DNA of 64,000 nucleotides from Porphyra umbilicalis. Taxonomy: Eukaryota > Rhodophyta > Bangiophyceae > Bangiales > Bangiaceae. The notes beneath the pieces are model-generated. The model was not told where the DNA came from. It worked only from the letters and a program-made list of their open reading frames with translations, and did no database searches. Made by a program: the position numbers and the translations under genes. The stretch's first letter is position 1. The number at the start of each line of letters is the position of its first letter. The stretch lies in contig KV918835.1 of assembly GCA_002049455.2 (NCBI GenBank), forward strand, positions 210,798 through 274,797, in the 5' to 3' direction. Positions 2,911-64,000 of the stretch are shown in pieces.

Positions 2911-3012
2911 GGCCCAGGGGGCCGCGGCGCGTGCCGTGAGGCGGTTCCTCCAACGAGCCCGTACAACCTCGACATCGGTGCCAGAGGTCCTGCAACCGGG
3001 AGTGGGACCAAT

Positions 3013-3614: not shown

Positions 3615-3625
3615 CTCCTCCTTGC
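3615..3625 (-). promoter_or_regulatory. Copia polypurine tract
   Basis: The minus strand reads GCAAGGAGGAG immediately before the 3' LTR, the expected place and composition for the plus-strand DNA priming site. Confidence 0.8.
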
Positions 3626-3649
3626 TTGTTGCCGCGGCGGTTCTTGTTT

Positions 3650-41994: not shown

Positions 41995-42000
41995 TATAAA
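41995..42000 (+). promoter_or_regulatory. TATA box of the Fea1-family gene
   Basis: TATAAA in the context GCGATATAAAGAGCG, 150 bp upstream of the ATG at 42150. Good position for a core promoter with a 5' UTR of roughly 120 nt. Confidence 0.6.
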
Positions 42001-42149
42001 GAGCGACTCCCCCCCCACCATCGCCCATATCTGCGACCCCATAGCCAGCGAGCCGACGACTCCCATCTGCCTCTCCCCTTGGCCCGTCGGTTCTATTTGG
42101 CTGCTGCCATTACCCCTCCCACCGGCTCCCCGTGACCCTTCCCACCACC

Positions 42150-43296: not shown

Positions 43297-43800
43297 CTAG
43301 ACGTCCACCTTGAGCTGGGTGGGGGGAGGGGAGGTGAGGTAGGCAGTACACGGCGGAGGGCATGGCAGGCGGGTGAGGGTCGGACAGGCCCAGGCAGCAC
43401 GGGCCCCGCGGGACATGTTCGTCGGCATAGGGAGACACTCATCTCTCAACGACCAACCAACAGCAACTCATGGATGAGCTCTTCTGACACAGTAATGACT
43501 CATAGGTGCAGGCCAGGGAGTGAAAAGGATCTGACTCATCAGGCAGTTCCTTTCGACTCGATAGGCCACGCCTTGCCCGTGGCGATGTGCGGCGGCGGCC
43601 GTGGGAAACAGCCGCCTTTCGGTGGAGCAGGCTGTCGTCCAGACCTTCCACCCTGGCCAGCACAGTCGCTCCTCACCCGACCGACCCTTGAGCATGGTGC
43701 TCTGCGTGGGCGCTCATGTGGGAGCACAGCAGCGCGGACCACCAAGCCGCCTGCAAGCGGCCTACGGCCCTCTCCTTGTAGTTCAGGACAACGGCGCGGA

Positions 43801-43806
43801 TATAAA
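43801..43806 (+). promoter_or_regulatory. TATA box upstream of the hydrolase gene
   Basis: TATAAA in GCGGATATAAAGTGCG, about 250 bp upstream of the ATG at 44054, and similar in context to the box at 41995. Confidence 0.45.
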
Positions 43807-44053
43807 GTGCGTCCTCGTTACAAGAGAATCGTTTACAAAAGAATATGGGTTGAGAATCTTCCATTTCAGTCCGTGTCGGCCATTTTTTATTCATATTGAG
43901 ACGAATCAGCGAGAACGCACTGTATCCATGAAGAATATCAATTATATTCATCACTGCGAGGCATACGCAGGTACAGTAGCCGCGGATGTGGCTTGCGCGT
44001 AGCTCGGAGCCGTCCCCACCCCGGCTTCCCCCGCGACCCCCCCCCCCCCCGCC

Positions 44054-45475
44054 ATGCCTCCCCCCACCGACGACGCGGCGCTGACGCGCCCCGCCCCCTT
44101 CGCTACACCCTCACCCCCGCCTTTTCCAGCAACACCGGCCCCGTCGTTGTGCTCATGTCCGGGTGGCCCGACCAGCCCGCCACGCTCTACGCGGGCCTCC
44201 TCTCCCGCCTCGTCGCCGCCGGGTATCGCCCCGCCCTCGTGGAGCTGCCGGGCTTTCCCCCCCCGCTGGTGGCACCGCTGCCGCCACGGTGGTGGGGGTG
44301 GGACACCCCGCAGGTGGTGGCCGGCTACGCTGCCGCGGTGCGGGCCATCCAAGCCGCCGCCGCCCCCGCCCCCGCCGCTGTTGGCGGCACCGCCGCGGGC
44401 GCGGGGGCGGGCGCGGCGCCGACCCCCCACCCGCCCCACCCGTCACGTTTGTCACGCACGATTGGGGGGCGGCCATGACGTGGCGCCTCGTCGAGGCGCA
44501 CCCAGACGTGGCCGCCGCCATTGTCGGCGCCGACGTGGGGGACGTCGGGCGCATCCGCTCGCCTGCGATGCTCCTCTTTTGCGCCTTGTACATGTCGGTG
44601 CTGGCGGCGCTGTTTGTGGTGGGCGGGCCGGTGGGGGACGCGGGCACCCGGTGGGTTGCGCGGCTGCTCGGCGCGCCGCACCCAGAGGCGGCCGCTGCGC
44701 GCATGAATGCGCTCTACTTTTGGACGGTGCGGGGGCAGATTAGCGCGGCGGTGCGCCGCGTGACTGGGGGGGGGGGGGGGGGCGTGGACGAGGGGGCGGG
44801 GGCCGGGGGGCTGGGGAGGGCCGCCATTCCCCGGCTCGGTCGCCGCGCAAGGACGTGCCGCCGGCATGCCCGGTGTTATACCTGTACGGGGAGCGAAAAA
44901 AGGTAAGGGTGGTGAGGGCGGGGCGGGGGCGGGCGGGAAGGACCCTGGGCAATGGCTGCGGTGGGGTGTGTGCTCTGTCGCTGCGTTGGTGGGCATGCTG
45001 GCCGCGCGGACGCGCAGCGATCTCGTCCGCTTGTTTTTTTTATTTGCCTGCCGCGTGTGTGGGTGGCGGCACGAACACCCGGCAGCGACTAACCAGCGGC
45101 GCGTTGCTTGCCCTGCTCAGTGTGGTGACCTGTGCGTGCATGTGCCGGCCGCTCTTCTCTGGTCGCGGCCGCCTCTTGTTGTCGTCTGGCCGACTCTGCG
45201 TTTCGCCCCCCACAGGGCTTTCAATACCACTCGGCCGAGTGGCTCGCCGCCCTGCGCGCGCGCCCCGACTGTGGGTGGTGCCCCTCGACGACTCGCATTG
45301 GCTCATGGCCGGGCCCGCCGCCGACGTGTACGAAGCGGCGGTCATGGAGTGGTTGGCGCGCACCCTTGGGGGCGGCGCATCTGCGCCGCTGCCGCCGCAC
45401 GGTGCGGCCGCGACGACGGCGGCGGCGGCGTCGGCAGCGGCGGCGGTCGCCGGTGAGTCCAAGAAGGAGCTTTGA
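44054..45475 (+). pseudogene. Alpha/beta hydrolase with one GT-AG intron, frameshifted
   Basis: Alpha/beta-hydrolase fold protein. ATG at 44054, then PVVVLMSGWPDQPATLYAGL (oxyanion-region strand), YRPALVELPGFPPP, TFVTHDWGAAMTWRLVEAHP (nucleophile-elbow region with the HDWG pattern of epoxide-hydrolase/dehalogenase relatives, Asp as nucleophile), MNALYFWTVRGQI, CPVLYLYGERKK, and after an intron FQYHSAEWLAALRARPDC and VVPLDDSHWLMAGPA with the catalytic His. The intron (44903-45215, GTAAGG...CCCACAG, phase 0) joins the two halves exactly where relatives continue. Frameshifts at about 44095, 44440, 44765 (17-G run) and 45285 break the frame. Two or three of these lie in G or C runs, so assembly error is a real alternative to a pseudogene. 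Substrate unknown. Confidence 0.75.
44903..45215 (+). other. Spliceosomal intron of the hydrolase gene
   Basis: Donor AAG|GTAAGG at 44903, acceptor CCCCACAG|G ending at 45215; 313 bp; phase 0. Splicing would join GERKK to GFQYHS, consistent with the usual strand-helix continuation of alpha/beta hydrolases. Confidence 0.75.
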
Positions 45476-46890
45476 AGGGCAACGGGGGTGCCATTCCCGC
45501 GCGCCGCACCCGGCGGCCACAGTGTGCGCGGAGAAAATATCCATGCACAGATGGGAGAGTAGCAGTGGAAGAGGGTGCCGGTAGAGACGTACCGGTCAGC
45601 AAAAGATCGTGCACGCCCTTTGCACTGCCTTCCCGCCCCCTCCTCCAATCCCACTCCCAGTATACGCCCTGCACGTACACAGGGTGACGATGAGGCACAC
45701 GTAGGGCCGTGTGTGCTCAGGGCGCTCGGGGTGGTGACCGCTGCGACGCACCGCCTGCAGCTTCTGTTTGTGACCATGACCCTGCCCGTCTACCTGGCCA
45801 TGTACCTCGACGTTGGTGGCTGCACGACGATGGAGTCGCTGCCGACAGGCTTTGCCAACCCAGACAGCAACAGCCAGTTCAGGTGTATGCGGGCGCGGCG
45901 GGGCTGTGAGGGGGGGATTTGCACCTCGGGGGGAGACGGGCGGGGCGTCCTCGACCCACTTGTGAGGTTGCTGACCGACCGCCTAGGGGCCGAGCCACTG
46001 TCCGAGGTGGGGGGGGAGGCGGGGGGATTGAGCGTGCTTGTGGACCCGGCTTCCCCATTGGGCCAGTAACGATGGCCTCCCCCGCCGCCTCTGCGCCCCC
46101 CGCCAACGACAACAACTCCGCCGTCTCTGCCTCTGCCGCCGCCGCCTACCGCCGCTGGGGCGAGCCCGTCACGCCCCATTCTCGTCTCACATGTCCCATT
46201 CTCGTCTCGTACGAGCGATTTTCTGTCTCTTACGAGCGATTTTCTGTCTCACACCTGGCTCATTGGGGCATTCGAGTCGAACATCGTCGCGAAAATGTAC
46301 CACGTACGGAGCACGTGATGGGGACTTGGCCAGCAGGATGGTCTGCGTCTGACGAGGATGGCACGAGACTGCAAGCGGAATAGCTGATTTCCAGTGAATT
46401 GTAGAACATTGTACAGTGAGTTCCTGATATACGGTCGGGGTTGATGTAATCAGATCCTTGCATGTTACAAAATTTGCCCCCTCCTGGACGCGGAGACGCA
46501 GGTCATTTCGGAAGCTATCATGTGGCTGGCGATCTTACGGCAGGAAGTCACTGTACTGACACTCTTTGCCTTGTCTCTGCACGAAAAACGAAGGGTCATC
46601 TGCCGGCACACTCGTGGTCTGCTCATCTGCCGCCACACTCATGGTCTGGCTGTGGACCTCGTCACTGCAGGCTCTCTGCGCCAGGTGTGACGAGGACACC
46701 GGGAGACGCTGCGGGCCCGTGACGAGGCCGCGTGCGACCTCGTCAAGTGGGCGCCTCCATTCAAGCAACGTCGGGAAGCTGGACCGGCGTCGCGCCGCTT
46801 AGTCTTTTTTTTCCCACGCCGCAGACGACACTCCCAACTGCGTGGATGCTCACCAGCGACAGGGGCACGGCACCCTCTCGCCCGTCGACC
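45476..46890. other. Unassigned stretch between hydrolase and GRDP genes
   Basis: A possible plus-strand exon near 45710-45890 reads VLRALGVVTAATHRLQLLFV followed by PVYLAMYLDVGGCTTMESLP and ends at a donor-like CAG|GTGTAT. It is unidentified. At 46170-46255 short direct repeats occur (CCCATTCTCGTCTC twice; ACGAGCGATTTTCTGTCTC twice). The rest holds nothing recognised. Confidence 0.45.
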
Positions 46891-49088
46891 ATGGAGGCGG
46901 ACTCGGCCCCCTCCGCTCTGAGCCTGCCGCCGCGCGCGGCGGCGCTACCCGCTGCGGCGGGGGCCCTGCGCGACCTCCTGCGCCGCGTCGACAGTACAGC
47001 GACGGTGCTGTGGCACGGTCCCGGTCTGACGACCGCCCTCCTGCGCTACCAAGAAGTGTTTTTGCCCATGTACGCGGCCCACCTGCACGCGACGGGGCGC
47101 GTTGTGCTCCACGGGCGGGCCGCCAAGAAGGCGGACGCGCTGATGGCGGCGGCGGCGACCGTGGCAGCGACCACGAGACGGACGGCACGCGCAGCTGCGG
47201 CGCGACCGCTGTCGGCGGAGGAGCATAACGCGTGGGCGTCGCTGTCGACCAAGACGGCGGGCGGGGTGGCGCACCCGCCGCCCCTGCCGCCGCTGGACGT
47301 TGCGTTTGTGTGGATGCTCGCGCGGCTCGACAACCGCGCCTACGCTGCGGATTGTCTGGGGACGTTTGGGGTGGAGCTTCCTGCTGGGGGAGGGTGGGCG
47401 GGCGCGGAGGGGACGCCCAACCACGGGGATGGCGTCGACGCGCCGGCCACCGCTGGCAGCGACTGCGGCGGGGAGGGCGTCGACTTGGCGGCGGCGTTGG
47501 ACCACGTGTGGGTTGGCAACGCCACAGAGCCCCGCGCCGTTACGGCGCGCCTGCAGTGGGTGTGCTTTGCCCAAGCGACGCGGGAGGTGGCCCACGCGGC
47601 GCGCAACGCAGCGGCGGCGGCGGCGGTCAAGGCGAAGGCGACAGCGCAGGGCTCTTGGTGGACCCGCCACATACGCGCCCCCCGCGCGGTGAGGTTGGCT
47701 CCGCCGCCGGTGCGGCGCACGCACACCCACTTTCTGCCCGGCTACCTGTGGCCGCCCACGAGCCTTTCGCCGTTGGTCAAGGGCACCGCTGGCCGCACTG
47801 GGTTTGGCGCAGACATGCCGGCGGGGTTTGTCACCCGCTTTGACTGGGCGCCCCGACCACGGGTGGCTGCCTTGGTCGCCGCCGCCGCGTCGCAGCGGCT
47901 CTTTTTAGCCGCCACCGTCGGTCCCCCCGGGCCGCTCGACACGTGGGCGGGGTTGGAGGCGGCGACCACCCGCTACGGGCGATACCTGGGCCTCGTCGCC
48001 TCCCCTGCCGCCGCCGACACCTTCCTCGTCCCGCCCGTGGATGTCGATCTCGTGTGGCACGCGCACCTCGCGTCGACGGCGGTGTACGCGGCGGACATGC
48101 AGGCGGTGCTCGGGCGCCCGCTGCACCACATTGCCGATGATGATAATCGGGCGGGCGGGCGCCTGCGGCAGGGCCGTGCCGCGACCGCCGCCCTGTGGGC
48201 CGCCGCGTACCCGTCCGACCCGTACCGCTGGCGCCGCAGCCGCGCGGGTGCCACTTCACCTGGCACGTCCGCCGCCGTCAAGACCGCCGTCAAGAAAGCG
48301 GCGGTCGTCGACAAGACGGCCATCAAGGCGGTGGCCTCCACCGCAGAAGGCAACCGTGGAGGTTACTGGCCACAAGGGGCCATCGATGTAGCACCACAAG
48401 CCGCCAAACTCGCTCTCGTTCTCCGCGTCCAGGCGGAAGCCGCCGCCGAAGCGGCCGCGGTGGTGCGCGCCGACGCCGCCATCGCCGCCGCCACCGCGTC
48501 CCCCTCTGCTGACGCCACCGCCGGCCGTGCCCGCAGCGGCGGTGCCCCCCCCCCCCCGCTTCACGCCGCGAGGCGCGCCTCCAGCGGTACGCCACCGAAA
48601 CGGCGCAGCGGACCGCCGAAGCCGCCGCCTGGCGCCGCCGCATCGGCCCCTCCGCCGTGCCCGGCGGTGGGTGGCCCGGCTTGTACGCGGTAGGCATGGT
48701 CGCCGCGCCGGGCGATTCGATCGCGGTCGCTTCGTGTTCGGCGTTTCAGGGGCCGGCCGCTGGGCGGGGGGGAGGGGGACACGCGGCCGTCCAAATGGGG
48801 GGATCATGGTTGGGTGTGGAGGCGGGGGGGCTGCCGCCGGGTGTGATGGGGGGGGGGGGAGGATGCGGTGCGGGGGTGGGTGCGGGGGGGAGGGGGCTGT
48901 GGCGGTGGCGGTGGGTGTGGCGGTGGGTGTGGCGGCTGCTAAAGCGCCCCACGCAGCGTGCCGGCCGCAACCGCCGCCGCGGCTGCCTCCGCGCGACGCG
49001 GCCGTCCGTGACGAGCGCCGACCGCTGCCGCCGCGGGTGTGGCGTGCCATCCGACAGGTGTTTGCTAGTCTCAACGTCGCTCCCCTAA
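46891..49088 (+). CDS. GRDP-like protein (DUF1399 / PF07173 type) with Gly-rich tail
   Basis: The ATG at 46891 (GACCATGG context) is preferred to upstream starts because the protein-like sequence begins there. Two copies of the family's core motif are visible: PLDVAFVWMLARLDNRAYAAD (about 47295) and VPPVDVDLVWHAHLASTAVY (about 48030), with PLHH following the second, as in GRDP proteins (PxxDIDLxWHxH). Between them is a LPGYLWPP block. The frame ends at 48693 unless it shifts at a 13-C run (48545-48557). One extra C would open QRYATETAQRTAEAAAWRRR and a Gly-rich tail to TAA at 49086, matching the Gly-rich C-terminus typical of GRDPs. GRDPs are linked to development and stress in plants; the biochemical role is unclear. 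Confidence 0.7.
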
Positions 49089-49094
49089 CCGTCA

Positions 49095-49650
49095 CGTGCT
49101 CTGAAGCGACTGTAACTCTGAAGCGCCTGTAGCTCTGAAGCGCCTGTACCTCTGTAGCGCCTGTAGCGCTGAAGCGCCTGTAGCTCTATAGCGCCTGTAG
49201 CTCTGTAGCGCCTGTAGCTCTGTAGCGCCTGTATCTCTGTGGCGCCTGTAGCTGTGTGGCGCCTGTAGCTGTGTGGTGCCTGTAGCTCTGTAGCGCCTGT
49301 AGCTCTGTGGTGCATGTAGCTGTGTGGTGCCTGTAGCTCTGTAGCGCCTGTAGCTCTGTAGCGCCTGTAGCTCTGTGGCGCCTGTAGCTGTGTGGTGCCT
49401 GCAGCTCTGTAGCGCCTGTAGCTCTGTAGCGCCTGTAGCTCTGTAGCGCCTGTAGCTCTGTAGCGCCTGTAGCTCTGGCGTCTGTAGCTCTGTTGCGCTT
49501 GTAGCTCTGTAGCGCCTGTAGCTCTGTAGCGCCTGTAGCTATGTAGCGCCTGTAGCTCTGTAGCGCCTGTAGCTCTGTAGCTGTTGTAGCTCTGTAGCGC
49601 CTGTAGCTCTGTAGCGCCTGTAGCTCTGTAGCTCTGTAGCTCAGTATCAC
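49095..49650 (-). repeat. 17-bp minisatellite, long open frames
   Basis: About 32 copies of TGTAGCTCTGTAGCGCC with point variants (GTGGCGCC, GTGGTGCC). Because 17 is not a multiple of three, every frame on one strand encodes the same 17-residue repeat, and the minus strand (GGCGCTACAGAGCTACA) has no stop, giving two overlapping frames of about 190-200 residues (Ala/Thr/Gln/Tyr/Arg repeats). No ATG context or flanking gene suggests expression. Confidence 0.93.
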
Positions 49651-49785
49651 CGTGCCTTGTTGCGACGTTTCTAGAATAATCCTTGAACGCCAAGAGCGTC
49701 GATTTCTATCGTAGTCCTCCGTGTATCGAACAGAGGTCGGGCCCAAATTTCGTTTTATAAACTATCCAGTGTGCACAAGAGAATC

Positions 49786-49919
49786 AACCAAAGGTTAATT
49801 CCCCGGCCTTTAGGACAGGGTGCTCTCAAAGTGTAGTGATGCACACATATACTTAGATCAAGGAACTTGTTCTCCGTTTCAGAGGTGGCAGTCTGCATTC
49901 GTGTCCTCAGGGATCTGAG
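49786..49919 (+). repeat. 3' end of the dispersed repeat family (copy 2)
   Basis: Homologous to the complement of 28556-28690. It encodes the tail PLGQGALKV followed by TAG, then the shared 3' UTR ending GGGATCTGAG. Only the last part of the element is present. Confidence 0.82.
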
Positions 49920-50003
49920 TGTGGGTACACGGCGAGAATCAAGAACATACGCAATGTAAGCGCAGTGCGCCTGACACCGACAGTCGCAGACCCCACCCTT
50001 ATG

Positions 50004-50095
50004 TAGGGATGAGCAACCGGCTCGTTTTCGGAAACTGGTTGAACCGGGTATTTGGTCATCCAGTTACCAGTTTAAAACCGGTTGCGAACAAATAC
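50004..50095 (+). repeat. hAT left terminal and subterminal repeats
   Basis: Terminal 17 bp are identical to the right end. Beyond that, AACTGGTTGAACCGG, CCAGTTACCAGTTT and AAACCGGTTGCG give clustered binding-type motifs in both orientations. Confidence 0.9.
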
Positions 50096-50297
50096 TATAC
50101 TTTGCGTATAAAATCAATGCATTGGATAGTTGTATACCTTCATTCCGAGATTTAACAACGTTCCGACGCCACCATTGCGGCTGTGTCGCCGGGACGTGCT
50201 GCTCCTTTCCCAACTGCTCGCCGTCCCAGCCCCTCCGTCCATTGAACGGCGCCCCCCATCACAGCCCCCGGCTCTCTCCACCAGGACAGCCATAACC

Positions 50298-52916
50298 ATG
50301 GCCAACACTCCGCTCCCCCCCTCACCCCCGACCCCGACGGACGGCGCGACCAACGAGCTGACGGTCCCCAGCGCTCCGGCAGCCACTGGTGGCACGGCTG
50401 CCAATGCGACCTCTCTGCCGCTGGCCCCTCGCTCGTCGTGGAAGCCACCGCAAGGGTGCCGCTGGGCTTCCGTGCCGTCGGGCCGACGAAAAAGCCGGGT
50501 CTATGACTACTACGTTGCCGAGTACAACAGTGCAGGCGTCATGGATTCTACTGCCTTTTTTTGCGTCCACGAGGACCATCTGGGGCACCCTTCTCGTGTG
50601 GCACATGCCAACGGGACCACCAACTTGAAGCGGCACGTACGGGACAAGCACGCAATTGAAGCCGAGCCCATCCTCCCTGTGCCCTCGCTCGCCGCGCAGG
50701 GCAATGCCGTCCAAGTTACTGATCAAGTCCACATCACGTCTTTTTTCGCGGCCAAGCCGGGCCCCTACCCGTCGGGGCACCCGACGCAGCAGAGATTCTA
50801 CGACGCCCAGGTCAATATGATCATCTCCACCCTGAGCCCGGAGGCGATTGTGGACAACCCCGCGTACGTGTCTATGATTGGGGTCGCCAATCCCCGCTTG
50901 TCAACACTGTCCCGGTTTTCCCTCTCTCGGGCTATCTCCATCAAGTGGGAGCGCCACATGGCTGTCGCGCGCGAGGAGCTGTCTCGCGTGCCCATCTGCC
51001 ACGTCAACTCTGACATGTGGACATCTATTGCCAACTAGCCGTTTGCTTCTTTTGTGGCGACCTGGCTGGACAACAAGTGGCGCCTGCGGACAGTGGTCCT
51101 GCGGTGCTGTGTCGTGGGCGGGCGGCACACAGCCACCGCTATTGCCGCCTTCCTTTTGCGCGTGGCTGAAGAGTTTAGCCTGCGGGAGAAAGTCGGTGTC
51201 GTACGCACAGATGGGGCAAGCAATTGCGTTGGTGCCGGTCGCGTGCTCGGCCGAGCCGCTGGTCGCGGTGCGCCTGTCGCCACTCGACGGAGCTCCGCGA
51301 GTGGTACGGACCGGGCGTTGGGCGGTGGCGGAATCCCGGGCGGCGGGGGCGGTGCCACCGGACCAGTCGGAAACGGGGGAGCACGCCGTGGGGGCGGCGC
51401 TACTGGACCCGATGGGCTCGAAGGTCCGGGTCGTCGCGCGTTGCCGGATCTCGACGATGCGGACGATGAAGGAGGCGATGGAGGTGACTTGGACGATGTC
51501 GGGTCTGATTGTGGGGACCCTGTCGAGCTCGGCCCTGACCTCGTTGAGTCGGGAGGCGATGGGTCAGGGACCGGCGGCGATGCAGCAGCCCTCGCAACCG
51601 AACGTGCGGACACCTTTTTCTCCGAAATACCTGCCGCCTTCCGGAACCGGCAGGCCGATCACGTGACTCGGGATGCCGCGTTCCTTTGGCAGCACGCCCG
51701 GTGTGCCACGCACACCCTGCAGCTGTCTGTGCGTAAGGGCCTGTCGGTGCCGATTGTGCGGTATTTGCTTGACAAGGTGCGGTTGGTGGGCAAGCTGTGC
51801 CGCACAAGTACCAACTTCCAGGAGGAAATGAGGCTGGCGGTCGAGTCTGAGGAGGCCCGTGCAGCGGCTCACGAGGGCAGAGAGCCGTTGGGCTCTGCGC
51901 TTCTCGCTTCCCGCTTGATCATCGACTGCCCCACCCGCTGGGGGTCGGCTGCTGTCATGCTTCGCCGGTTCCTTCGTGTCGGCGCAGCCGTGCCAGCTGC
52001 CCTGTCATCGTACTACCACTACACAGCGGTGCCGGCACGGAAGAAGCGCGTCGAGTGCCCAAGCTTCCAGGAGCAGGCAGCGCTTAAACAACTTGTTAAG
52101 TTTCTGGAGATATTGGAGAGCGCCTCCGCGAGCCTGGGGTCCGAGTCAACGTCGACGAGCCCCATGGAGGAGACGGTGTATTGGTATGTGCGCCGTGCCG
52201 CGGCTCCCCAGACGCTGGACTGCCAAGCCAGTACTTCATTCAAGTGCGCCGTGGTGGGCGACATGGCCACCCGCCGGGACCGAGAGCGTCTGGAAGGACC
52301 CAACCCCTGCTGGTTTGACATTCGTGTGGCGGCTGTGCTTCTCGACCCGTTCACCAACTCTTTTACATTCGGTGACAACCCATCAACTGCAGCCACGGCG
52401 CGGCACCGCGCCATCGACATCATTAGCTGGATGGTCGCGCGATCGCCAGATGCGACTTGAGCTGGGTCTGAGCGTGCGGGCGGCGGCCCAGCAGCGGGTG
52501 GCGGCGACGGTGGTGCCCCCCCCCCGACCAAGAAGAAGCGGACGTTTGCCTCTAGCTTACGCGCTTTTGCTGCTGAAGGAACGTTTGGAGAGGACAGCAA
52601 CAGTCCCTCTGTACGGTCGGATTCGGTATCTACTGTTCCCATTGAGACGGAGTGGGAAGCGTACATTGCCTTTTCTGTGGATACTGACTCGGAGGAGACT
52701 GCTTTTTCATGGTGGCTCCAGCATGAGCAGCTCTTCCCCCGAGTTTCTTTGGGAGCTCGCTACTTGCTGCCCATTCCTGCAACAAGCGTCGCCTCTGAGC
52801 GAGTGTTCTCCAAGGCAGGTCGTACAGTCACGAAGAGCCGGGCTCGATTGACTGGGGCCCTCGCGGAGAAGTATGTTGTACTGAATGACAATTTGCTACG
52901 AACCGCTAGCGAGTGA
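50298..52916 (+). pseudogene. hAT transposase, two in-frame stops
   Basis: The ATG at 50298 (ACCATGG) begins an 873-codon frame with no frameshift. N-terminus: a BED-like region (FFCVHEDH...NLKRHVRDKH, residues 88-118). Catalytic core: first Asp D239 in HVNSDMWTS, second Asp D305 in VRTDGASNCVG. Then come an unusual Gly/Asp-rich insert (about 330-430), the CATHTLQLSV motif (about 470), DCPTRWGS (about 545), and a C-terminal dimerisation domain with FSWWLQHEQLFPRVSLGARY and IPATSVASERVFSKAGR (about 800-860). TAG at codon 247 (51036-51038) lies directly after the first catalytic block, and TGA at codon 721 (52458-52460) lies before the dimerisation domain. Both are single-base-change stops. The last codon is followed by TGA at 52914. 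Confidence 0.92.
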
Positions 52917-53987
52917 TGGAGGGTTTCTTCTTGACTGAACCAAGGCTCCATTGACCAGAGCACAGCCCCAAGAGAGACAGTCTCAACAGTCCCTCACCTC
53001 CCAGAATAGCAACGAGATAAGGTCCTCCTCCCCTCCCCCCTCATCCACAACTGATGCAATATCCCCCCCCCCCAGCCGCTTGCTGCACAGCCACTGGCAC
53101 ACTCCAGGGGCGTCCCCCCGGCCCCACCTGCATCATCTCGAGTGCCGACTGTCCAGTGTGTCATGCCACAGGCGGCAGCCCGAGACGAGAGTGGCATGGT
53201 GGAAGACGGCTGATCAGTCTGCTTTGCCGTGTGCCCGGCCGGCTGAGACCAGCCCACCCTCGCGCAGAGCGGACGTGCCAAATTCGTGGTCTTGTGTGTG
53301 AAGCGCACGACGCGGCCGGGCCCGCGCAGGGGGGGTCGAAGGGCACGTGATGACATGTGGCTGCGGATGGGACAGTGCCTAGCCGCATCCGCGCAGCCTC
53401 GGGACTGTTGTCGAGACAATATCGAGAGGAGCATCGAGTGCTTAGTAGTTCCCGCCCGCAGGACCCGCCATTTTTGGCCCACAAGCGATCTGGTGTATCT
53501 CAGATTACCAGAAGGCCTCCCATCACCGAAAGTGGGGTCAAGCGTGAAGTGACTCGACACCAAATTTGTGAAGGTCTTCTTGCATGAACATGGGCGTCTG
53601 GAGGTAGTTGATACAAGTCGGAGCTCGTTTGTAACTGTACAGTATCCCGTCGGATTCGGCAGCGGCGTTGGCAGATCCCACCACCCCGAACCGCCACCCA
53701 AGAGAACACCCCGTGTGGGAAAGCCGGAGCCATCGGCCAGTGGCTTCGGTCGCCGGACCAGATCCGTCCTGTGGGCACACGAATGGCAGCGAGTCTGCAG
53801 CCCTGGCATTGGCACCACACATCCACAAACAGGTCCTGCCCCGAGTGCACGTGAGGCTGCGCTTTGTTTTGTGGTACGCCGGAGCGGCGCGCTCCTGTGT
53901 CTGTATGCTCGTCACTACGCGCTGTCTAGCTTGAGTACCTCTGCCCTCTTCCACAGATTGATCCCCCCGTCCCCCATTCTCTTCGAC
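52917..53987. other. Spacer or possible N-terminal extension of the KDZ-like gene
   Basis: After the hAT stop there is about 1 kb without a recognised gene. The frame of the KDZ-like ORF is open back to about 53568, with an ATG at 53583. The added 135 residues look low-complexity and the sequence CTCTTCCACAG at 53946-53956 resembles a 3' splice site, so an upstream exon is possible. Confidence 0.4.
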
Positions 53988-55592
53988 ATGACTCTTCTTG
54001 CCGTCGAGTTTGAGCGATGCCTGGGGATCTCCTGCAACGCCTACAAGCTGCGCAACCGCGTCGCCGTTTCGGTCACCGTGCGGACCGTACGTGGCATTTA
54101 CAACGCACGTGCTCTCTCCCGCTCCTGCGACAAGTGCCGGACGCAGTACACTCCGGGTATGACGACGTACAAGCCCGACTACTTTGTCAACGAGATCCAG
54201 CCGTGGGTGACATCTGCGCTCCCCATCCCTGCCGTTGACTTGGACGCCGCAGTGGGAGTCCGAGCGCACAGCCCCGTTCAAGGCCTTGTGCGCGTCTCAA
54301 ACCACCATTTCGTCGATTTGACGCTTGCTCGGTCTTGGTGCCTCCAAGCCACGATGGGCCGGTCGTCAACCGAGAGCCAAGCCCTGGTGCGCGCGGCGAC
54401 GGCGACGTCTGATACGCTCCTCGACAATATGGACGGGCTCGACGGGGTGGAGGAGGAGGGGGGCCTAGGGCAACTGATTTGGGCATCCATCGTGTTCTAT
54501 GGGGCTTTTCTCTTCGAGCAGCGGCGCGGCTGCGTCAATGTGGCCTGGCTGACAGTCCACGACGTGCAGCGGACGCGCAGCTCCCTCCGCACATCCCTCC
54601 ATGCCCTGTGCCGTCGGATGGTCGGCGTGTGGCAGCGTGTTGGGTTTTTCCACGCACGTCACGAGTGTGACAGGTGCCGTCTGTTTAATGGCATCGACTA
54701 TCTTGTGGGTGACGGCGTTGCTATGGGGGGGATTGTATGCGGCATGGAGGGCTGCCTTGATCCCCCCGTCCACAATCTTCGGTTTTGCGTGCATCACTCG
54801 GCGCGTGAGCGCGTCTGCGCTGTCGTGCGGGTTTCGTCATCATCCGGGCCGTGCGGGGAGCCCCGGGCGCCCCGAGCTCCCTCCGCTGGTCGACAGGCGT
54901 TCTGGCTCGTTTGCCGACGGCACATCCCATTGGAGGAGGCCCACGAGCGGCGCGCGAACTCGGCGGCCACGCGGCGCAACGGGAGTGTACCCGGTAACGT
55001 TGCAGCAGATGCGGCTGCTTCTGTGGACGGGGACGGCGGGGACCAGTTTGGTGCTCATGGCGGGGGGCCTGGATCGGGGCTGCGGGCCGTGTGGCGTCGT
55101 CAACACGTCCAGCGCTATGTTGTTTTCAGCCGACCTTGTGGGGTTGTTGTCTTTGCTCAGTTTCTGTCGGGTGGGGAGGGACCCGCGACAGTTCTCGCTT
55201 CCATGGCCCGGGCGGTGCGCTGCCTTGAGCGCACCCCGTCGGCTATTGGCTACGACATGTGCTGTCGCATCCACCAGCACCTGCGTGGACCCAATGTTGT
55301 GCGGCGGGATGCCGACACCGTAGCCGGGGCTGTCTTGGTAGTGCCTCGCTTCCATGAGCGTACTCACCGACTCTGTGCGCCTCATTGCATGTCTTCGTGT
55401 CGAATGTCGTGCTATCCCGAGTTGGTCGGGCCTGATGTCAGAACGAGTCTCTTCAACACCTCGCGGGCCGAGCAGCACTTCAGGTTCTTGCGTGGATGGC
55501 AAAACACAGTCCACAGCATGCACTGCGACAAGGCCGACTTCATGCTGGGTTGTGTTGAGGAGGAGCGCAACTTTGACTTGCTCCGGCGCTAG
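53988..55592 (+). CDS. KDZ-like transposase with CxC cysteine clusters
   Basis: A 534-residue uninterrupted ORF from an ATG at 53988. Cysteine clusters associated with Kyakuja-Dileera-Zisupton (KDZ) transposons are visible: C47-x2-C50, C227-x2-C230, and YLVGDGVAMGGIVC...C256...FCVHH...C277, which matches the pattern DG...C...C...FC..H...C of the CxC5/CxC6 modules. The C-terminal core has IGYDMCCRI (Asp 423), VVPRFHERTHRLCAPHC (455-467) and FNTSRAEQHFRFLRGW (489-504), corresponding to the YDIAC, vP.fH..aH...C and terminal acidic blocks of KDZ enzymes. The last residues EEERNFDLLRR precede TAG. It lies inside the hAT element and, unlike it, is intact. DNA-mobilising activity is inferred from family resemblance, not shown. 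Confidence 0.65.
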   Translation: MTLLAVEFERCLGISCNAYKLRNRVAVSVTVRTVRGIYNARALSRSCDKCRTQYTPGMTTYKPDYFVNEIQPWVTSALPIPAVDLDAAVGVRAHSPVQGLVRVSNHHFVDLTLARSWCLQATMGRSSTESQALVRAATATSDTLLDNMDGLDGVEEEGGLGQLIWASIVFYGAFLFEQRRGCVNVAWLTVHDVQRTRSSLRTSLHALCRRMVGVWQRVGFFHARHECDRCRLFNGIDYLVGDGVAMGGIVCGMEGCLDPPVHNLRFCVHHSARERVCAVVRVSSSSGPCGEPRAPRAPSAGRQAFWLVCRRHIPLEEAHERRANSAATRRNGSVPGNVAADAAASVDGDGGDQFGAHGGGPGSGLRAVWRRQHVQRYVVFSRPCGVVVFAQFLSGGEGPATVLASMARAVRCLERTPSAIGYDMCCRIHQHLRGPNVVRRDADTVAGAVLVVPRFHERTHRLCAPHCMSSCRMSCYPELVGPDVRTSLFNTSRAEQHFRFLRGWQNTVHSMHCDKADFMLGCVEEERNFDLLRR

Positions 55593-58500
55593 TGCGCTCC
55601 TCTGTTGTTTAGGTGTAGAGTACGTGTCTGTCTATTCAATAGTAGCTTGTTATCTCTTTGCACTTGCTAATGTACAGAGCCCCGACATCTGGCCGACAAC
55701 AGGTCGATGCACCCGTCTAGGAAGTATTCTACTCATGGAAGCAACGAACAGCCGACAAAAGATGGCGGGGACATTGCCTTAGCGGCCCTTGTTCCAGCTG
55801 GAAAGCACAATGTCGGCCGCCACCACGTTTGAGAGAAAGCAGGCCCAGGTCAGGACGCTCAGGTCGCGACAGCGAGTGGTCGTCACGGTGGCCATTGTTC
55901 GCGTGGGTGGCCAGTGACAACTACATTCCCACGTCCGGCACGCTGTCTCCACTCGCGGAGGCCTTCTCGCCTCCTGCAACATAACCAAAGAAGGAAACAT
56001 GGCCGGGGCGGGAGCCGTCCGATACAACTGCGGAAAGCCGGCCTGCTCGTCAGATCCAAGAAATTGTCAGACTACATATCAAGTCGCGGATGCCAATTCC
56101 AATGTAATAGGAATACCGTTTCGAGAAAGAGTCCTCATTCTTTGCCATGGGCGCAGCACCGCCGAAGCAGTCGACAGAGAGATGCACACCCGTCAAGCGC
56201 CGCAGAGTGCAGAGCCACAGGCAAGCACTTTTTTCTTGTAGCGGTGTACTCTTCAACTCAGAACGAGACGGCACCGAACGTACTGTTCAAATAGGCTTGG
56301 CAACGGCACCTCCGAGCAACTCGACCCTCGACGCTGCCATCACTCGAAGTGCTTTCATGGAGATGAAGTGTGCCGACAGCGCTCACCTTCACGCCTCGCC
56401 ACAAAGGAGATTCGTAGTGTCTCAGTTCGCCAGTGGCAAGAAGGGCAGGAGCGGACGCAAAGTCATGAACGCTCGGCGTCACTAGGTCTGCTCGCATACC
56501 TAGGCAGGAGCCACCACATTGCTCGGCGTACGCACCATTGCCGTAGCTACTACGATGAGCACAGGCAGGACCACCTCCAGAAGGTCTACATTTCTTTATT
56601 TTTCCAGTCCCCGTCTGACAGCCGTGGCGGCGCGTCATTGCCGCGGCGCGGTCTCGCCAGGGGATACAAAGGCTATCTGCTTCTGCCGAAAGTGCTTTCC
56701 ACTACCACGAGCAAGCGCTTCGGCGAGCACCCGCACGAAACTGGGCTGATAGTGGTATCAGGGGTAAACGAAGGCGCATCTATGTTTACTACAATGAGAA
56801 CATGACTGTGGCGTCACTTCTCGACTGCACCGCGACATGAAGTAAAAGTGTGAACCTCCACGGCCACACACAAGAGAGCGTCTGCTCCAGCCAGCGCCGC
56901 AAACGCACGGCGAGTCCATCGTGGAACGCAGGTGGGCGGCGGGCAAAGGGGCGCCGCAAGCGATGCGGCAGCCCCCACCATGGGACCTGGCTGAGGCACA
57001 CCACGCGGGCTACAACGCTGAATGTAACGCATGTGGCGGCGCAGCCGCCGCTGCTGCCAGCCTCAACCAAGTGCAACATCGCCTCGAAGAACCGCAGCGC
57101 ACAAAGCAGCACCGACAGACGGGGCTGCAGACGAGGACGTGCGCCCTCTGGGCGGGCGATGGTAAAATCGGGGCACCCACGTGAGATGATTACCTGTAGT
57201 GGGACCGCTCACCGTGATGAGGGGAAAGCAACATGGGGGTGTCTTGGTAGCGTGACTACCAAACGACTGGGAATAGTCGTGTCGGGGCCGCGGTCCGTAC
57301 AGCTACTGCCGCGGGATAGAGCACACGCTGCAGCTGCGAGCTTGACGGAGCTCGTGCAGCTTGCACAAAGAAAAGAGACGTCCGCGCACGCGACGTGAGT
57401 TGCAAAGACACAAAGGGAGAAGGAACTGATGTCCCGTTCTGATGCGACCCGATTTCACTGTCAAGTAACTTGAAGCAAGCATTACGAATGTCTCCGGCGC
57501 TACGATTAGAAACGTGGTACCACGGTGTACACGACGACGGCCTACTACCCCTTGACGACTTGCGTCACTGCACCACTTGCCGCAGCACGAGTTTCACATC
57601 GTGGGCGAATATGGGTTACGGAGCATAGCACACCCTAATAACAGGTCTTCTCCTGCCAATTACTGGTCAGGCCACGCTAATTCTAAACCGAAGCAGACGC
57701 AATGTTTGACCCCGGGAGGATTGATAACCATTTATCGCATTCTCCTTTTTCCAACTACTGAGCGGGGCATCTTCCCACTCGGCCACAGGGACCTTTGCTG
57801 TCCGATCACGTCTCCAGATGCAATTTATAGCATAGATTCTGTCTCTGGTCTCGGGTTCGATCTTCTCCGGTCGGAATAAAAGAAGGACTCTATTCGGGCG
57901 TACAACACCCCAGTACCCAGTTTGCTTCGATTCTTGCGCTTGTATGCTTCTTGGGCCGGGCTTTCAGATCCCGCCTGGTTGCGGCGCGTGTGGCCGACTA
58001 TCAAGTTAGCGCCTCGGCGACCCCTCCCGCATGCTCGCGGTCGCCACCGCACCGAAGATGCTGATTCTCGGGCTTCTGTTCTGTTGCAACCACCGCAGAC
58101 ATGGGCGCCCCCTATTGCACTAAGGGGGGCCTGCAGGCCACGGGCGTTGACACTTTCCCTACCGATGCACCGCAACAGCCACATTGGCACGTCTGCCGCA
58201 TGCTCGTACTCTGCCCCCACAGCCCGCGGCGGCGGGAGATGCGTCGGCGCCATCAGCCCCGCCAGCGCTGGTAGCCGTCCCCGGCAGCGTCATCATAGCT
58301 GGATCGGCCGGGCCCGCGGCCCGTCATGGTACGATACAAGGTTTCGCTGGCACCCCGACCCACTAGCTGGACCCATGGCGTTGGCCACGGTGTGGCCAAC
58401 CTGTGCATCGCCCCCACAACTGCAGCACGCAATGGGGAGCACGCTACTCAGCGTGATGCCTAAAAGGGGCAGCCAAAATACTACTGACGGTACCGTGCCG

Positions 58501-60694
58501 AGTGCAGAGGTGACGTCCGCCAACCACGTGGCCCCTCTATGCGCCTTTCATGTATGCGGGCTGTGCGCGGCCGACAGGGCCAATGGCGACCCAGAAACAG
58601 AGAGAGGTGCGCGCACTAGCAACCAGGTAAGTGATGTTCTGCCTAGACCGCCCCTCCCAGAGGACGCCACCGCTAACGTCGGAAGACTACATCGACGCAG
58701 TGCCCGAACGCAGCAAAGACGCGTCCCTCTGCGTGCCAGTCCCATAGCCGCCCAGCGTGCCACCGCGCTTCCATAGACCCAGGAATGGTGGCAGAGGCGT
58801 CCGACCCACGTCCGCACGGCCCCCCCGGCCGCAGAGCCCCCGCTTGCTACCCTCCCCGCATTGTCCTGCCTTTCCCCGACATTTTCAGAGTCCTTCGGGC
58901 TGATGCTTGTAGCCTGTATGGCGGGGGCTTTCTGTCGCTGCACCCACCGACGCCGTCGCGAGGTTGGTTCCTGCCTTGAATCGCCGGCCTTCAACTCCGA
59001 GATCTGCGCGCATGCCAATGGAAAGGCACCAGACGCAGCGCCCTCATGACCTGGTATTGTCGCGCTGCTGAGACGGCTCGGCTGGATCGCTTTAGTCCTA
59101 GAATAAGAAATGCGGTTTGAAGCACTCGGGTGGCCGCAGTGACACAGGAGGCTGTATGACTCACGGTGCCCACCAGCGGGCCGCAGGACCCTAAAGACAT
59201 GCCGGTGCCGTTTCACGCCGATGAGAAACTTGGGGAAAGCGTGGCGGGTGCCATGACGCTGGGCATCAGCGACAGGAACGCCCCAGCCCTGGCGGGGTGC
59301 GCCCAAGCACACCCATCAGCCCCCCAGATCGTCGCCTGGCCGCCAGCGCCGAAAAGACTGCTGTGCCTCCTCAAGCCAGGTGCCTGGAGTGGAGAATATC
59401 CCAACGGCGCATGGCGGCGCGAGCTTTTGCCCATCGCCCTCTACGACTGTGTGCACGGCGCCAGCGGCATGCCGTCTGAAGGTATGACCTCTTGCAGCGG
59501 ATCTTCGCTACCGGCCAACACGCGCTTGGCACCGAATAATTGCGGCGCAAGAGTCGCAATGCCTACATTGGATTTTGCTTGCGCATGTGCCTGTGGGTAC
59601 GTCAACTGGCTTGCCGGAGAGCAATTTGTCATACCACCCCCTTCCCCACTACAGTATCGCCGTAAGCATTCCTTTGGTCTGTACCCCACTTCAGCAGATC
59701 CAGGCCTACCCTTTTATCCCTTGTGGCCGTTCCGGCGTCTGTGCTGTCTCTCTAGCCCGACCATCCGACGACACAATGACAGAGAGTGGCCGGCCTACGC
59801 GTGAGACACCGCAAGCCATGGCGCCCGCACACGACGCGACGGTTTTCCATGCCGCCGTGCTGAGTCACCAGTCGCCTCGCCCCCTGTTTCCGGCAGGAAC
59901 CTCGGCGCCGCCACCTCCGTTTTCCGGACAGAACTGTTTCGTCCGACTCGGAGCGAGGGTAGCGTCCTTCCACCGTCCCTAGGCTCTCATTGTAGTGGCT
60001 TTTTACGCTACCCGCGAGAGTCACTCGCATCGGCTGGGTCGCCCTTTCCCATGACACACTGTCATCCGCCGCTGTGGCGGCGGACCCGCTCGCGCACACG
60101 TGACCGTCGCCGGTTGTGACAGACAGCGGCAGTTGCCATGGTGCAGAACGAGGTGGAAAATGCACCTAAGAGCGCGCATGACCATCTCGTAGTCCCTATC
60201 CCTACCTATACTCTTCACCCCCGACCCTCCCCCGCAGCTTTTAGCCGCCCACAACACGGCCGTGGTAGCCTAGGTGGTGAGAAGCTGTCTCTGCTATATG
60301 TGAGACGGTGGCCAGCGGCAGAAAAACGCGGCGACGGACCTAGAGATTCCCCTGTGCCCTAACCTGTACCACATACTTGAAAACGGCGGCCTCTCCCGCT
60401 ACCACCACCACTATAGGAGACGCTTCAACAATGGCTTTGGTGTACTCTGTGGCCGCCCTCGCCCCTCCGCTCCTTCTCATCGGATGGCCTGCAACCGGGT
60501 TGCCGCGGGCAGGTGGAAACGGAGTGAGGGATGTCTTGGGAAAAAAACAGAAAATGAGACAAAGGAGCTTGTGATTGGTGACGGAGGCGCGTGCGCCTGG
60601 TCGAGGAATAGATGTGCCCTGTGTCGTCGGTTGCCATACTTGAGCTAATGAAAAAAAGAAAAATAAACAGCTAGAAGGCATCGACGCTTGCGTA
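55593..60694. other. 5.1 kb unassigned inside the hAT element
   Basis: Between the convergent KDZ-like and minus-strand ORFs. Composition is closer to 50-55% GC than the GC-rich left half. Open frames (for example plus 57922-58776, minus 58548-59312) overlap each other and show no motif. I find no terminal repeats of a nested element and no RNA gene. Confidence 0.45.
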
Positions 60695-62611
60695 TCACTC
60701 GGTCGCCTTCATCCACGCAACTTGATTGCGCACGGCACGAGGATGGTCAATAAAGAAAGACCAAACTTTGGCGACCCACAAAGCCGCAGATAGGTGGCTC
60801 GCCATGGGTTGCAGAGCCACCTTCTCATCATTGAGCATCAACCGCAGGGTGGCCAAGATCCACTCTTCTCCACCATCACCATCTCGGCTGGGGCGGACCC
60901 GCATCCGTAGGTCGTCAAAAGCAGATTGGGCACGAGACCGGCCAGAGCTACGACGAGCGCGGAAGTGGCGGATGTCCTCAAAAATGACATGTGCCGGCGG
61001 CGCGGAGTGGAAGAACCCAAACAGAGCGAAACTGGTGTTGCGAGCCACCACATACATCGTAGGCAAGTCCCGGATGCGGATCAGCTCCTCCATGTACACC
61101 GCCCCGGCTGTCTGCGCACGCAACCAGGAGACCGTCACCGTGCGGGTTGTACGAAGGACAGCTGTCCCGTCGGCACCCAGGGCGTACCGCGGCCATGTGG
61201 GCATCCAAATGCGGGCGCCCTCCCGCAGAGCCCACTGGCGAGCCTCATCGCGGGTGAAACGACCAATAGCGCCCACCAAGAACACCTCGCTCGTGAAAGC
61301 GCGCTCCTCCTCGTCGAGACCAAATGCAGCTGCCAGGAGGTCACGTGCCGCCACGGGGGAGACGTGCGCCGACGGGTCCAAATTGGCCGCGGGGGGCAGC
61401 TCGGCTGTGGGTGGCGCGCCAGTAGCATCCGCGGGTAGTGTAGCACGGGGGGCGACTGAAGACGGAGCGGAAGGAGCGGTAGACGGGTAGGCACAAGCAG
61501 GCGACGATGGGGATGGGCGACGAGTCCCAGACGGTGCGGGGGCGCAGGTATTTATGGGTCGCTGATCCCGGGCGACAGCCGGAGGCGGCAGGCGGTGAGC
61601 GGTAGTCTGGTTGCCAAGCGAGGCAGCGGCCGGGAGGCGCCGGATGAGTGCCGCAGTACGAGCCGGTGTAGACGTGGCCGAGGAGCGTTGCACAGACGCC
61701 GGCGTTGGATCAGTGGCATAGCCCTGCAGCACCGCTGACAGCACATCATCGTCCTCCGAGTAGCTGTCTGGCTCAGTGGACGTGTCCGACAGAGGACGCG
61801 CCGGAGTCCCGACAGGAGACCCAAGAAATCCACCCGTCAAGTACTTGTGCGCGGTCGTTGCAACGCTCGGCTTGGAAATTCTTCCACAGCGCACTTGGTC
61901 CGCCGTCCCACGCGAGCGCGCCGGGCGCCGGCCTCGGCAAGCCGACGCAGCCGGAGAGGTCGGCGGCATGCGCACGCTCGCTGCAACGGCAGCTGCGGGC
62001 AGCACCACCGGCTCCCCCGAAGCACCTGGCACCGGCCGCGATGGAAGGCCGACCGCGACCACGTCAACGGCGCTCTGTGCGGCGTACGCAAACATCCCAT
62101 CGGCGCCCCGTCCGGCTTCCGCCTCAACAAGAGCGCCACCACCCGGCTCAGACCACGCACCAGGTCCCACTCTCTTGGAATCCCATGCATGCGCGACAGC
62201 ACGGAGCACGGCCCGCAGGGATGAGGCACTCAGAGGGGCCGAACCACCCCCGGAGAAGCATTGGCGAAAGTGGTCGTCCATCTCGTCACGCGTCATCGGC
62301 TTTCCGGCGAGCGTCTCGAGGAAGGTGTCTAGGTGGTCAACCCGGGCAGGACGGAGGGTGGGCGGGATGGCAGACAGGATGGAAACCTTGAGCAGCGCGA
62401 GGTTGGTCTCGTTAAAAGCCTTGCGCGGCAGCGGTACGCGAACAGCTGCAGTCCCCTCGACCTGCATGCGAGAGTTGGACGGCGAGGCGCCACAGCGACC
62501 ACCACTGCGGGTACGGCGAGTAGGCGTCGCGGAGCGTGGAGAGTACGGATGAGCGGCGGCTAGGCGAGGCACGGCGGAGGTGAACAGGTGAGACGTGTCC
62601 TGGTCCGCCAT
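60695..62611 (-). CDS. Intact unknown 638-residue ORF
   Basis: The ATG at 62611 (ATCATGGCG) is preferred because the upstream extension to 62716 begins at a non-ATG codon. Three regions: N-terminal helical block with AFNETNLALLKVSILSAIPP and TRDEMDDHFRQCFSGGG (residues about 60-150); a Ser/Pro/Ala-rich linker (about 190-420) with an acidic DSYSEDDDVLSAVLQ stretch; a C-terminal globular block with DLLAAAFGLDEEERAF, RFTRDEARQWALREGARIWM, TVTVSWLRAQTAGAVYMEEL, VIFEDIRHFRARRS, EEWILATLRLMLNDEKVAL and SFFIDHPRAVRNQVAWMKAT. Stop at 60695. Charged C-terminal features suggest nucleic-acid or protein binding, but I recognise no family. It shares the hAT interior with the intact KDZ-like gene and points toward it. 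Confidence 0.6.
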   Translation of the reverse strand: MADQDTSHLFTSAVPRLAAAHPYSPRSATPTRRTRSGGRCGASPSNSRMQVEGTAAVRVPLPRKAFNETNLALLKVSILSAIPPTLRPARVDHLDTFLETLAGKPMTRDEMDDHFRQCFSGGGSAPLSASSLRAVLRAVAHAWDSKRVGPGAWSEPGGGALVEAEAGRGADGMFAYAAQSAVDVVAVGLPSRPVPGASGEPVVLPAAAVAASVRMPPTSPAASACRGRRPARSRGTADQVRCGRISKPSVATTAHKYLTGGFLGSPVGTPARPLSDTSTEPDSYSEDDDVLSAVLQGYATDPTPASVQRSSATSTPARTAALIRRLPAAASLGNQTTAHRLPPPAVARDQRPINTCAPAPSGTRRPSPSSPACAYPSTAPSAPSSVAPRATLPADATGAPPTAELPPAANLDPSAHVSPVAARDLLAAAFGLDEEERAFTSEVFLVGAIGRFTRDEARQWALREGARIWMPTWPRYALGADGTAVLRTTRTVTVSWLRAQTAGAVYMEELIRIRDLPTMYVVARNTSFALFGFFHSAPPAHVIFEDIRHFRARRSSGRSRAQSAFDDLRMRVRPSRDGDGGEEWILATLRLMLNDEKVALQPMASHLSAALWVAKVWSFFIDHPRAVRNQVAWMKATE

Positions 62612-63850
62612 GATGACTTGGAGCCGGGATTGAAGTGGGGATAGAGATGGAATGTACGTGGAAAGGGAGGGTGTGGGAACCTGTGTCGAAGTTGAAGATA
62701 AGTGTCGTGAGGGCAAGCGCGTGAGTGGTGGTAGGGATGTGCAAGACAGCTCGGTCGTCGACAGAGAGTGTCATAGAAGTACTCCTCGGGAGCCCCCCCC
62801 AGCCTCCCCCGAGTGCTCGACTGCCCCCGTTCAGCCCCAGGTGGGCTAGCAAGGGGGATGGGCCTCGACGGTCCGCTGCATGGTCGCAACAGATCCCAAA
62901 GCGGGAAAAAAGCGCGCGAACGGATTTGCTATCGACCGTGACGCCCCATGGCAACAGCACGCGACAAAAACGCCCGAAGCTGAAGGGAGAGCCCGGCCGG
63001 CGGCGAACAGATACGCGTCCTGGGGCAGTGCGTTGTGTTTGCCAGCCCTCGCTGGCTGGCACTCGCGCCAAACTGACCCCATGAGCTGTGGCCTGCGCCA
63101 CGACTCCCGGAAACCGCCGCCCGTCCCCGCCCTCATGGCCCTGAAAGCGATGGGCTTTGCTACATGCCAACAGCCCGAGGGCCTCGGAATCAAACAAAGA
63201 GGAAGCCGCGGTCCACCAAATGGGCTGAATCTCTCAGAGCGGGCCCCAGCCTGACAGGAAAAGGACACTGCGGCCAGCTGTGCGCAACTGCCACCTCCAA
63301 AGGATCCGTTTCAGCCCCCTACGCACACAGACGGCCCGTCCCACTTGCACAGTGCCCGGTACCTGGCTGAAGGATATCGGGGACACGCACAAGAGACCAG
63401 AGCAGCACACGGGGGTTCCCCTGACTGGTCGCCAGTGCCGGGATGCACAACACAGCGCGGGATCGACCTGCGCCCGCAAGATATACAACCACTGGCTCAC
63501 TCAGTACTGAAAGTACGCTCTGACACGTGCGACCGTAACACCATACGTCACAAATGCATATGTGTATATGTGACATCCTCAGATCTTTGATCGAGGGTCA
63601 ACATGATATCGGGCCACCGGTGCAGCGAGATTGGAACCCGCGTGTGTGCCACGAAGGGCTCCTGATTTCATGTTGGAGCCACATCCAGCTACATTAGTCA
63701 AGTTCATTGCCGGGACATGCATGATGCACTCGTGTGTGCTCGAGACCCGCGGATGTGGCACGACACTCGGAAGGGATCAGTCGGTGGCGGGCCCACGCAA
63801 GCACTTCCTGGGACCTGACCTTGGCGGATGATCAGGTGGGGGCACGTGGC
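62612..63850. other. No gene recognised
   Basis: Upstream flank of the minus-strand ORF and interior of the hAT right end. It probably contains that ORF's promoter; no clear TATA box was found. No other feature seen. Confidence 0.45.
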
Positions 63851-63973
63851 AGACCACGTGGCAACCGGTTGGCCCAGTTTTCAGCCCTCAGAACTGGTTA
63901 CAATCCGGTCCATGTTTTTTGCCAGTTTTAACTGGTTTCAACCGGATGCTACTAACCGGTTGCTCATCCCTAC
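63851..63973 (-). repeat. hAT right terminal and subterminal repeats
   Basis: Contains CAACCGGTTGG, AACTGGTTACAATCCGG, CCAGTTTTAACTGG and the terminal CCGGTTGCTCATCCCTA, mirroring the left end. Confidence 0.9.
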
Positions 63974-64000
63974 CCTTATGGCACTTCCCCCAAAAATGAA

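Follow-up and report, generated by a model that had tools for sequence, protein, structure and literature searches.

Giant transposons of the KDZ superfamily have been described in the brown alga Ectocarpus, where their accessory genes mostly lack a known function and nested insertions are generally fixed among copies, judging from the available part of the report (PMC12477816). Another study, in its accessible text, gives target duplications of 8 bp for Zisupton and for one Dileera family; two Kyakuja families have 7-bp duplications, CA..TG ends and no inverted repeats (PMC12730594). KDZ elements of about 9–11 kb occur in Cryptococcus (PMC12810828), and Zisupton and Kyakuja have been noted in Chlamydomonas (PMC8226300), each according to the portion of the paper at hand. 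In Pleurotus ostreatus, a frame of 739 codons with CxC5 and CxC6 domains (a related frame has 660) lies in a multicopy 6,792-bp insert in the MSH4 gene, and its authors, in the sections available, saw no KDZ transposon nearby and proposed an association with Copia elements (PMC7641404). Here we describe a KDZ-type transposon of the red alga Porphyra umbilicalis, found in a window of 64,000 bp (the whole stretch of DNA analysed; contig KV918835.1, called C75 below, positions 210,798 to 274,797). We consider it very likely that a hAT element inserted at this locus and was then entered by a 10.4-kb transposon of the KDZ superfamily, which encodes its own transposase and a convergent putative accessory gene, ORF2. 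The nesting itself is of an ordinary sort. The inner element represents a new family within a known superfamily, and accessory genes have been described before in elements of its kind; what is unusual is the companion gene alone.

The outer element is delimited by a 17-bp end, TAGGGATGAGCAACCGG, found exactly at 50004–50020 on the forward strand and at 63956–63972 on the reverse strand, and by an 8-bp target duplication, CCCTTATG, at 49996–50003 and 63973–63980, which together frame a span of 13,969 bp. At up to three mismatches this end has no further match in the window, and shuffled windows contained 0.15 matches on average, with two matches reached in 1 of 100 shuffles. The original prediction had seen here a 14-kb unit with perfect ends and a perfect duplication, a dead hAT transposase and two long interior frames, and had proposed either a large cargo-carrying hAT or a nested transposon of a poorly known type, with breakpoints between 52917 and 63850. 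The exact ends and duplication, the two in-frame stops in the hAT transposase and the two frames (679 codons on the forward and 691 on the reverse strand) bear out this description, and the genome search for the 17-bp end that it proposed found other hAT copies without the interior and located the breakpoints and duplication of a nested element within that interval.

In the assembly searched (83.8 Mb, 665 contigs, labelled here as C plus a number), the 17-bp end was matched 41 times at up to two mismatches, against 4 times for the reversed pattern. At three further loci, on C105, C106 and C294, end pairs with at least one exact end lie about 3.6 kb apart, and these copies (3,564, 3,567 and 3,680 bp) have exact 8-bp duplications of their own (GTACCATG, CTGGCAGC and GAGACCGG, respectively; one end of the C294 copy carries one mismatch). 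The C105 and C106 copies match the window at about 98% over 50001–53376 and at 97–98% over the last 205 bp, with nothing between; the C294 copy matches in pieces of 96–98%, with a difference peculiar to this copy around window 50900–51260, and likewise lacks the interior. Comparison with these uninterrupted copies places the junctions of the nested element at 53372/53373 and 63768/63769, and the window flanks, when joined side by side, equal the uninterrupted C106 copy at the junction.

The nested KDZ-type transposon is thus delimited to 10,396 bp (53373–63768, forward strand), 204 bp from the right hAT end. It separates a left hAT part (50004–53372, forward strand, 96–98% piecewise identity to the 3.6-kb copies) from a right one (63777–63972, forward strand) that closes with the 17-bp terminal repeat. 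Its own target duplication reads GGATGGGA on the left (53365–53372) and, with one mismatch, GGAAGGGA on the right (63769–63776), and the empty site reads GGATGGGA in all three uninterrupted hAT copies. Imperfect terminal inverted repeats (53373–53393, forward strand; 63748–63768, reverse strand) are identical at 16 of 21 positions, a match equalled by none of 100,000 random pairs, with the repeat length of 21 bp picked after the ends had been seen. The 14-kb unit consists of two successive insertions, the hAT and then the KDZ element. A 3.6-kb hAT inserted first, duplicating CCCTTATG, and the KDZ transposon entered it later, duplicating 8 bp, one copy of which has since acquired the mismatch.

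Two further full copies of the KDZ element were found, and no hAT parts were found in the 24 kb around either. The copy at C27:123027-133443 (10,417 bp) is 98.3% identical to the window element, with 159 differences over 10,395 aligned positions, and the copy at C226:53904-64875 (10,972 bp, including a 555-bp insertion) has 172 differences over 10,395. Both are flanked by exact 8-bp duplications (GCCACGTC and GTGTGGCG, respectively), the window pair agreeing at 7 of 8 positions, and all three full copies start with CAGTGCCTAGCC and finish with GGCACGACACTC. At up to three mismatches the left terminal pattern occurs at six places in the genome (C27, C75, C226, C459, C76 and C148) and the right one at three (C27, C75 and C226), and reversed control patterns gave no match genome-wide at the same threshold. 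C76 holds a decayed copy (88–91% identity, stops in the transposase), and C74 and C148 hold fragments. Because the genome DNA search overlooked the C27 and C226 copies, which are the closest ones, copy counts from that search are lower bounds. The two interior genes had also been thought foreign-looking, a view that finds no support, since the element is present in several copies and distant relatives of it occur elsewhere in this genome. Between the window and C27 copies, the transposase has diverged by 1.23%, ORF2 by 1.20% and the middle of the element by 1.86%. Within the element, a dispersed repeat of about 390 bp (57404–57802) was matched on eight other contigs, in nine stretches, and the alignments of the copies on C27, C226 and C76 run across it, which fits the fixed nested insertions reported in the accessible part of the Ectocarpus work (PMC12477816).

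Some of these copies carry insertions of their own. The 555-bp insertion of the C226 copy, at the place of window 59042, has inverted ends and an apparent TCA duplication and looks like a small Harbinger-type element. The C76 and C74 copies have insertions at one same position of the KDZ element (window 55642; 2.4 kb long in C76), which are partly similar to each other (72–75%), and therefore both may descend from one interrupted copy. On C148 (stretch L037, C148:143500-148500, positions 1120–1611), the first 217 bp of the left KDZ end are split by unrelated DNA.

The perfection of the outer ends and duplication over 14 kb would also be expected if the hAT had captured two genes as cargo and moved as one unit. 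Nevertheless, three hAT loci lack the interior, and at C27 and C226 it stands apart from any copy of this hAT and has ends and duplications of its own; the locus is therefore not a cargo-carrying hAT, and we reject capture, which retains hardly any probability, as the way in which the interior arose. A single locus, on C75, yielded the composite, with its left part repeated on C459, and no second locus with hAT and insert together was found. A join of two unrelated pieces by the assembly is very improbable as well. Because the window ends where the contig ends (C75, 274,797 bp), just 20 bp remain past the right hAT duplication, and the right junction is present in that one contig. However, contig C459, which runs through the left flank and the left hAT part and stops 231 bp into the insert, matches the window at 100% (rounded) over 42000–49990 and at 99.5% over 49801–53603, and therefore the left junction is present in two contigs. 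Furthermore, the outer 8-bp duplication is exact, and to the right of the insert the hAT sequence continues from the 8 bp that are duplicated on the left. We take C459 to represent this locus again, either as an allele or as a duplicate made by the assembly, and not a second event. Nesting by two insertions resolves the 14-kb puzzle and provides a red-algal KDZ family that is well bounded by its ends and duplications and is documented by an empty site and by three full copies. Because both hAT ends are intact, a hAT transposase made elsewhere might in principle still move the composite.

The transposase of the KDZ element (53553–55592, forward strand) is 679 codons long from stop to stop, and its conserved part starts at about Met146 (53988, a start suggested by alignment with its relative on C222), so that the protein may comprise 534 codons from there. 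It has CxC5 (residues 153–275; 27.6 bits, Pfam cut-off 26.9) and CxC6 (residues 385–426; 28.9 bits, cut-off 27.5) domains, both above their cut-offs, followed by a match to the KDZ core, below its cut-off, at residues 529–607; CxC5 was found in none of 14 control genomes. The stretches YDMCC, HERTHRLC and NTSRAEQ resemble KDZ core motifs. A structure model was too poor to use (predicted local distance difference test score, pLDDT, of 29). The frame is open in all three full copies, and the ratio of non-synonymous to synonymous substitution rates (dN/dS) between the window and C27 copies is 0.31 (13 synonymous and 12 non-synonymous changes), with a range of 0.31–0.59 across the three copy pairs, all based on few changes. 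A protein search returned an ENA record, P0003, at 99% identity, which stands for 22 member sequences. Distant relatives lie at four places in the genome (C24:47777-49459, a further place on C24 near 104 kb, C140:65966-67128 and C222), and conservation at C24 includes the C-terminal part. Judging from its family, this zinc-cluster transposase with a C-terminal KDZ-like core presumably binds the element ends and moves the element by cut-and-paste, leaving 8-bp staggered cuts.

A long open frame was also observed on C157 (stretch L057, C157:7500-13500, positions 2–3976, forward strand; 1,324 codons within the stretch, 1,436 reported). It has weak KDZ, CxC4 and CxC5 matches, all under cut-off, and no meaningful similarity to the window transposase by BLASTP, and perhaps represents another KDZ lineage, distinct from that of the window element, whose frame is intact.

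The cysteine clusters CxC5 and CxC6 and the 8-bp duplications (exact at C27 and C226) support an assignment of the Porphyra element to the KDZ superfamily, and no title on such an element from Porphyra appeared among the literature matches listed by a search that had most subscription journals outside its reach. With Zisupton, as presented in the available text (PMC12730594), it shares a KDZ-type transposase, 8-bp duplications and terminal inverted repeats, here imperfect. In contrast to Zisupton, its transposase is short and of the CxC5/CxC6 type, and no TET/JBP gene was found. Its 8-bp duplications would suit either Zisupton or Dileera. An identity with Kyakuja was also considered, and the 8-bp duplications, CAGTG..CACTC ends and imperfect inverted repeats speak against it, on the description in the same text (PMC12730594). 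Like the giant KDZ elements of Ectocarpus and of other brown and green algae, which are generally longer than 10 kb, the element has a putative accessory gene, a fixed nested repeat and an algal host with a long haploid stage; however, those elements reach 30 kb and the Porphyra element, in a red alga, measures 10.4 kb and differs in having a single putative accessory gene, which is convergent and is met again beside diverged transposases, as far as the consulted part of that report shows (PMC12477816). KDZ1–KDZ3 of Cryptococcus neoformans likewise measure about 9–11 kb and combine a KDZ core with a zinc cluster, but the cluster is CxC1 and the inverted repeats are 139–241 bp long, against 21 imperfect bp here; their duplications are of 8 bp for KDZ1, as here, and of 4–8 bp for KDZ2 and KDZ3, and no partner gene is mentioned for them in the portion of the paper at hand (PMC12810828). 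The Pleurotus insert resembles the Porphyra element in having a CxC5/CxC6 frame inside multicopy DNA, and the Porphyra element suggests that a frame like the one described in the available sections of that work can itself be the transposase (PMC7641404). That a mobile unit flanked by target duplications of its own encodes a CxC5/CxC6 protein bears on fungal frames that have not been taken for transposases.

ORF2 (60695–62770, reverse strand), an orphan convergent to the transposase, is 691 codons long from stop to stop, with its first Met at 62611. It is open and at the same place in all three full copies, which shows that it travels with the element. Searches of Pfam with the whole protein and with a C-terminal piece gave no match, a PDB sequence search returned nothing useful, a structure model was too poor to use (pLDDT 32), and a family search at E≤1 identified no TET/JBP dioxygenase among 10 window frames including ORF2. 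Searches of a protein collection with the whole protein and with its C-terminal part returned two ENA records alone, at 99–100% and 90–92% identity. These records, P0001 (99%) and P0002 (90%), stand for 20 and 3 member sequences, respectively. Because this search requires shared 5-residue words and, for the whole of ORF2, scored the best 7,994 candidates by shared words, the absence of ORF2 elsewhere in the collection is weak evidence.

Relatives of ORF2 were nevertheless found in its own genome. At E≤1, its C-terminal 261 residues matched the three full copies, the C76 remnant, C140 (34% identity, E 6e-11), C24 (26%, E 0.01) and, weakly, C192 (E 0.2). By BLASTP, ORF2 and the C24 piece align over 218 amino acids at 26% identity (E 1e-8), and a reverse search from the C24 piece recovered the three ORF2 copies (E 2e-6 to 1e-4), along with a fragment of 44 residues on C129. 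The C24 relative consists of 371 and 315 codons with one in-frame stop between them, and is about as long as ORF2. At both C24 and C140, the ORF2 relative is convergent to a transposase relative on the opposite strand; near the other two distant transposase relatives, on C222 and on C24 near 104 kb, the ORF2-side searches reported no relative of ORF2. Because relatives of both genes stand together, in convergent orientation, at two further loci, ORF2 has the look of an accessory gene of long standing, and it may long have been paired with this transposase lineage.

A more speculative reading, less likely than not, is a two-gene red-algal KDZ lineage, in which the compact CxC5/CxC6 protein would be the whole transposase and the element would need its long-standing orphan convergent partner to transpose or to evade silencing. 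By an equally provisional analogy, the role of this partner could be comparable to that of the TET/JBP proteins of fungal KDZ elements, to which the protein is unrelated. Several observations weigh against our main explanation, in which a transposon of the KDZ superfamily carries ORF2 as an accessory gene. The Pfam KDZ match of the transposase (18.9 bits, E 0.0013) is under the curated cut-off of 26.6. Two of the four distant ORF2-like matches (C24 and C140) are near a KDZ relative; on C129, the 9.5 kb inspected on the side where a transposase would be expected gave no match to one, and neither C129 nor C192 is listed with a KDZ match in the genome transposase search. The two genes lie 11 kb apart at C24 and 13 kb apart at C140, against 5.1 kb in the window. 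Both pairs are decayed and are at most putative single mobile units; their termini were not found by searching for the end motif with a matching 8-bp flank in stretches that may stop short of the ends. Finally, dN/dS of ORF2 between the window and C27 copies is 1.20 (6 synonymous and 19 non-synonymous changes), with 1.03–1.52 across the three copy pairs, again from few changes, and with values of about 1 or more no purifying selection is detectable between these young copies.

Such dN/dS values would also suit an ORF2 that is no accessory gene, being either an accidental open frame or a third separate insertion in the KDZ element, as would the lack of protein-collection relatives beyond the two ENA records at the sensitivity of that search and the two distant matches whose contigs have no reported KDZ match. 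Long chance frames are moreover common in this GC-rich DNA, the longest averaging 258 codons. However, none of 200 first-order resamplings of the element contained a stop-to-stop frame of more than 480 codons, well short of the 691 of ORF2, and the shared place of ORF2 in the full copies and the length and alignment of the C24 relative also speak against an accident or a separate insertion. The convergent arrangement at C24 and C140 argues in the same direction, the chance of two ORF2 hits both lying within 20 kb of four KDZ loci being 4e-6 by a rough, after-the-fact estimate that took these two hits and left out C192 and the later-found C129. We regard an accident or a third insertion as unlikely. 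As an accessory gene, ORF2 would most likely encode a protein that aids transposition or counters silencing, and this recurring orphan partner is a concrete candidate for such a protein, worth follow-up.

The outer element is an ordinary hAT. It shares with the hAT superfamily its 8-bp duplications, short inverted ends, size of 3.6 kb and a transposase with the C-terminal hAT dimerisation domain (E 8e-16; within 52461–52916). In the window copy this transposase frame (50130–52916, forward strand) is broken by stops, and the C105 copy has an open stretch of 689 codons. Short elements of 453 and 839 bp on C48 and C58 (L014 and L015) have hAT-like ends, TAGGGATGGGCAACCGG, and match the ends of a related 4.1-kb element on C234, as expected of miniature derivatives. 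An Rfam search of window 49600–64000 gave no match. To the left of the hAT, a tandem array of 17-bp units occupies 49030–49707, and a sequence of about 120 bp close beside the element (about 49798–49920) occurs at no fewer than 32 other places at 85–98% identity, mostly 95–98%, among the best 40 of 1,681 candidates that were scored, and is possibly a young short interspersed repeat.

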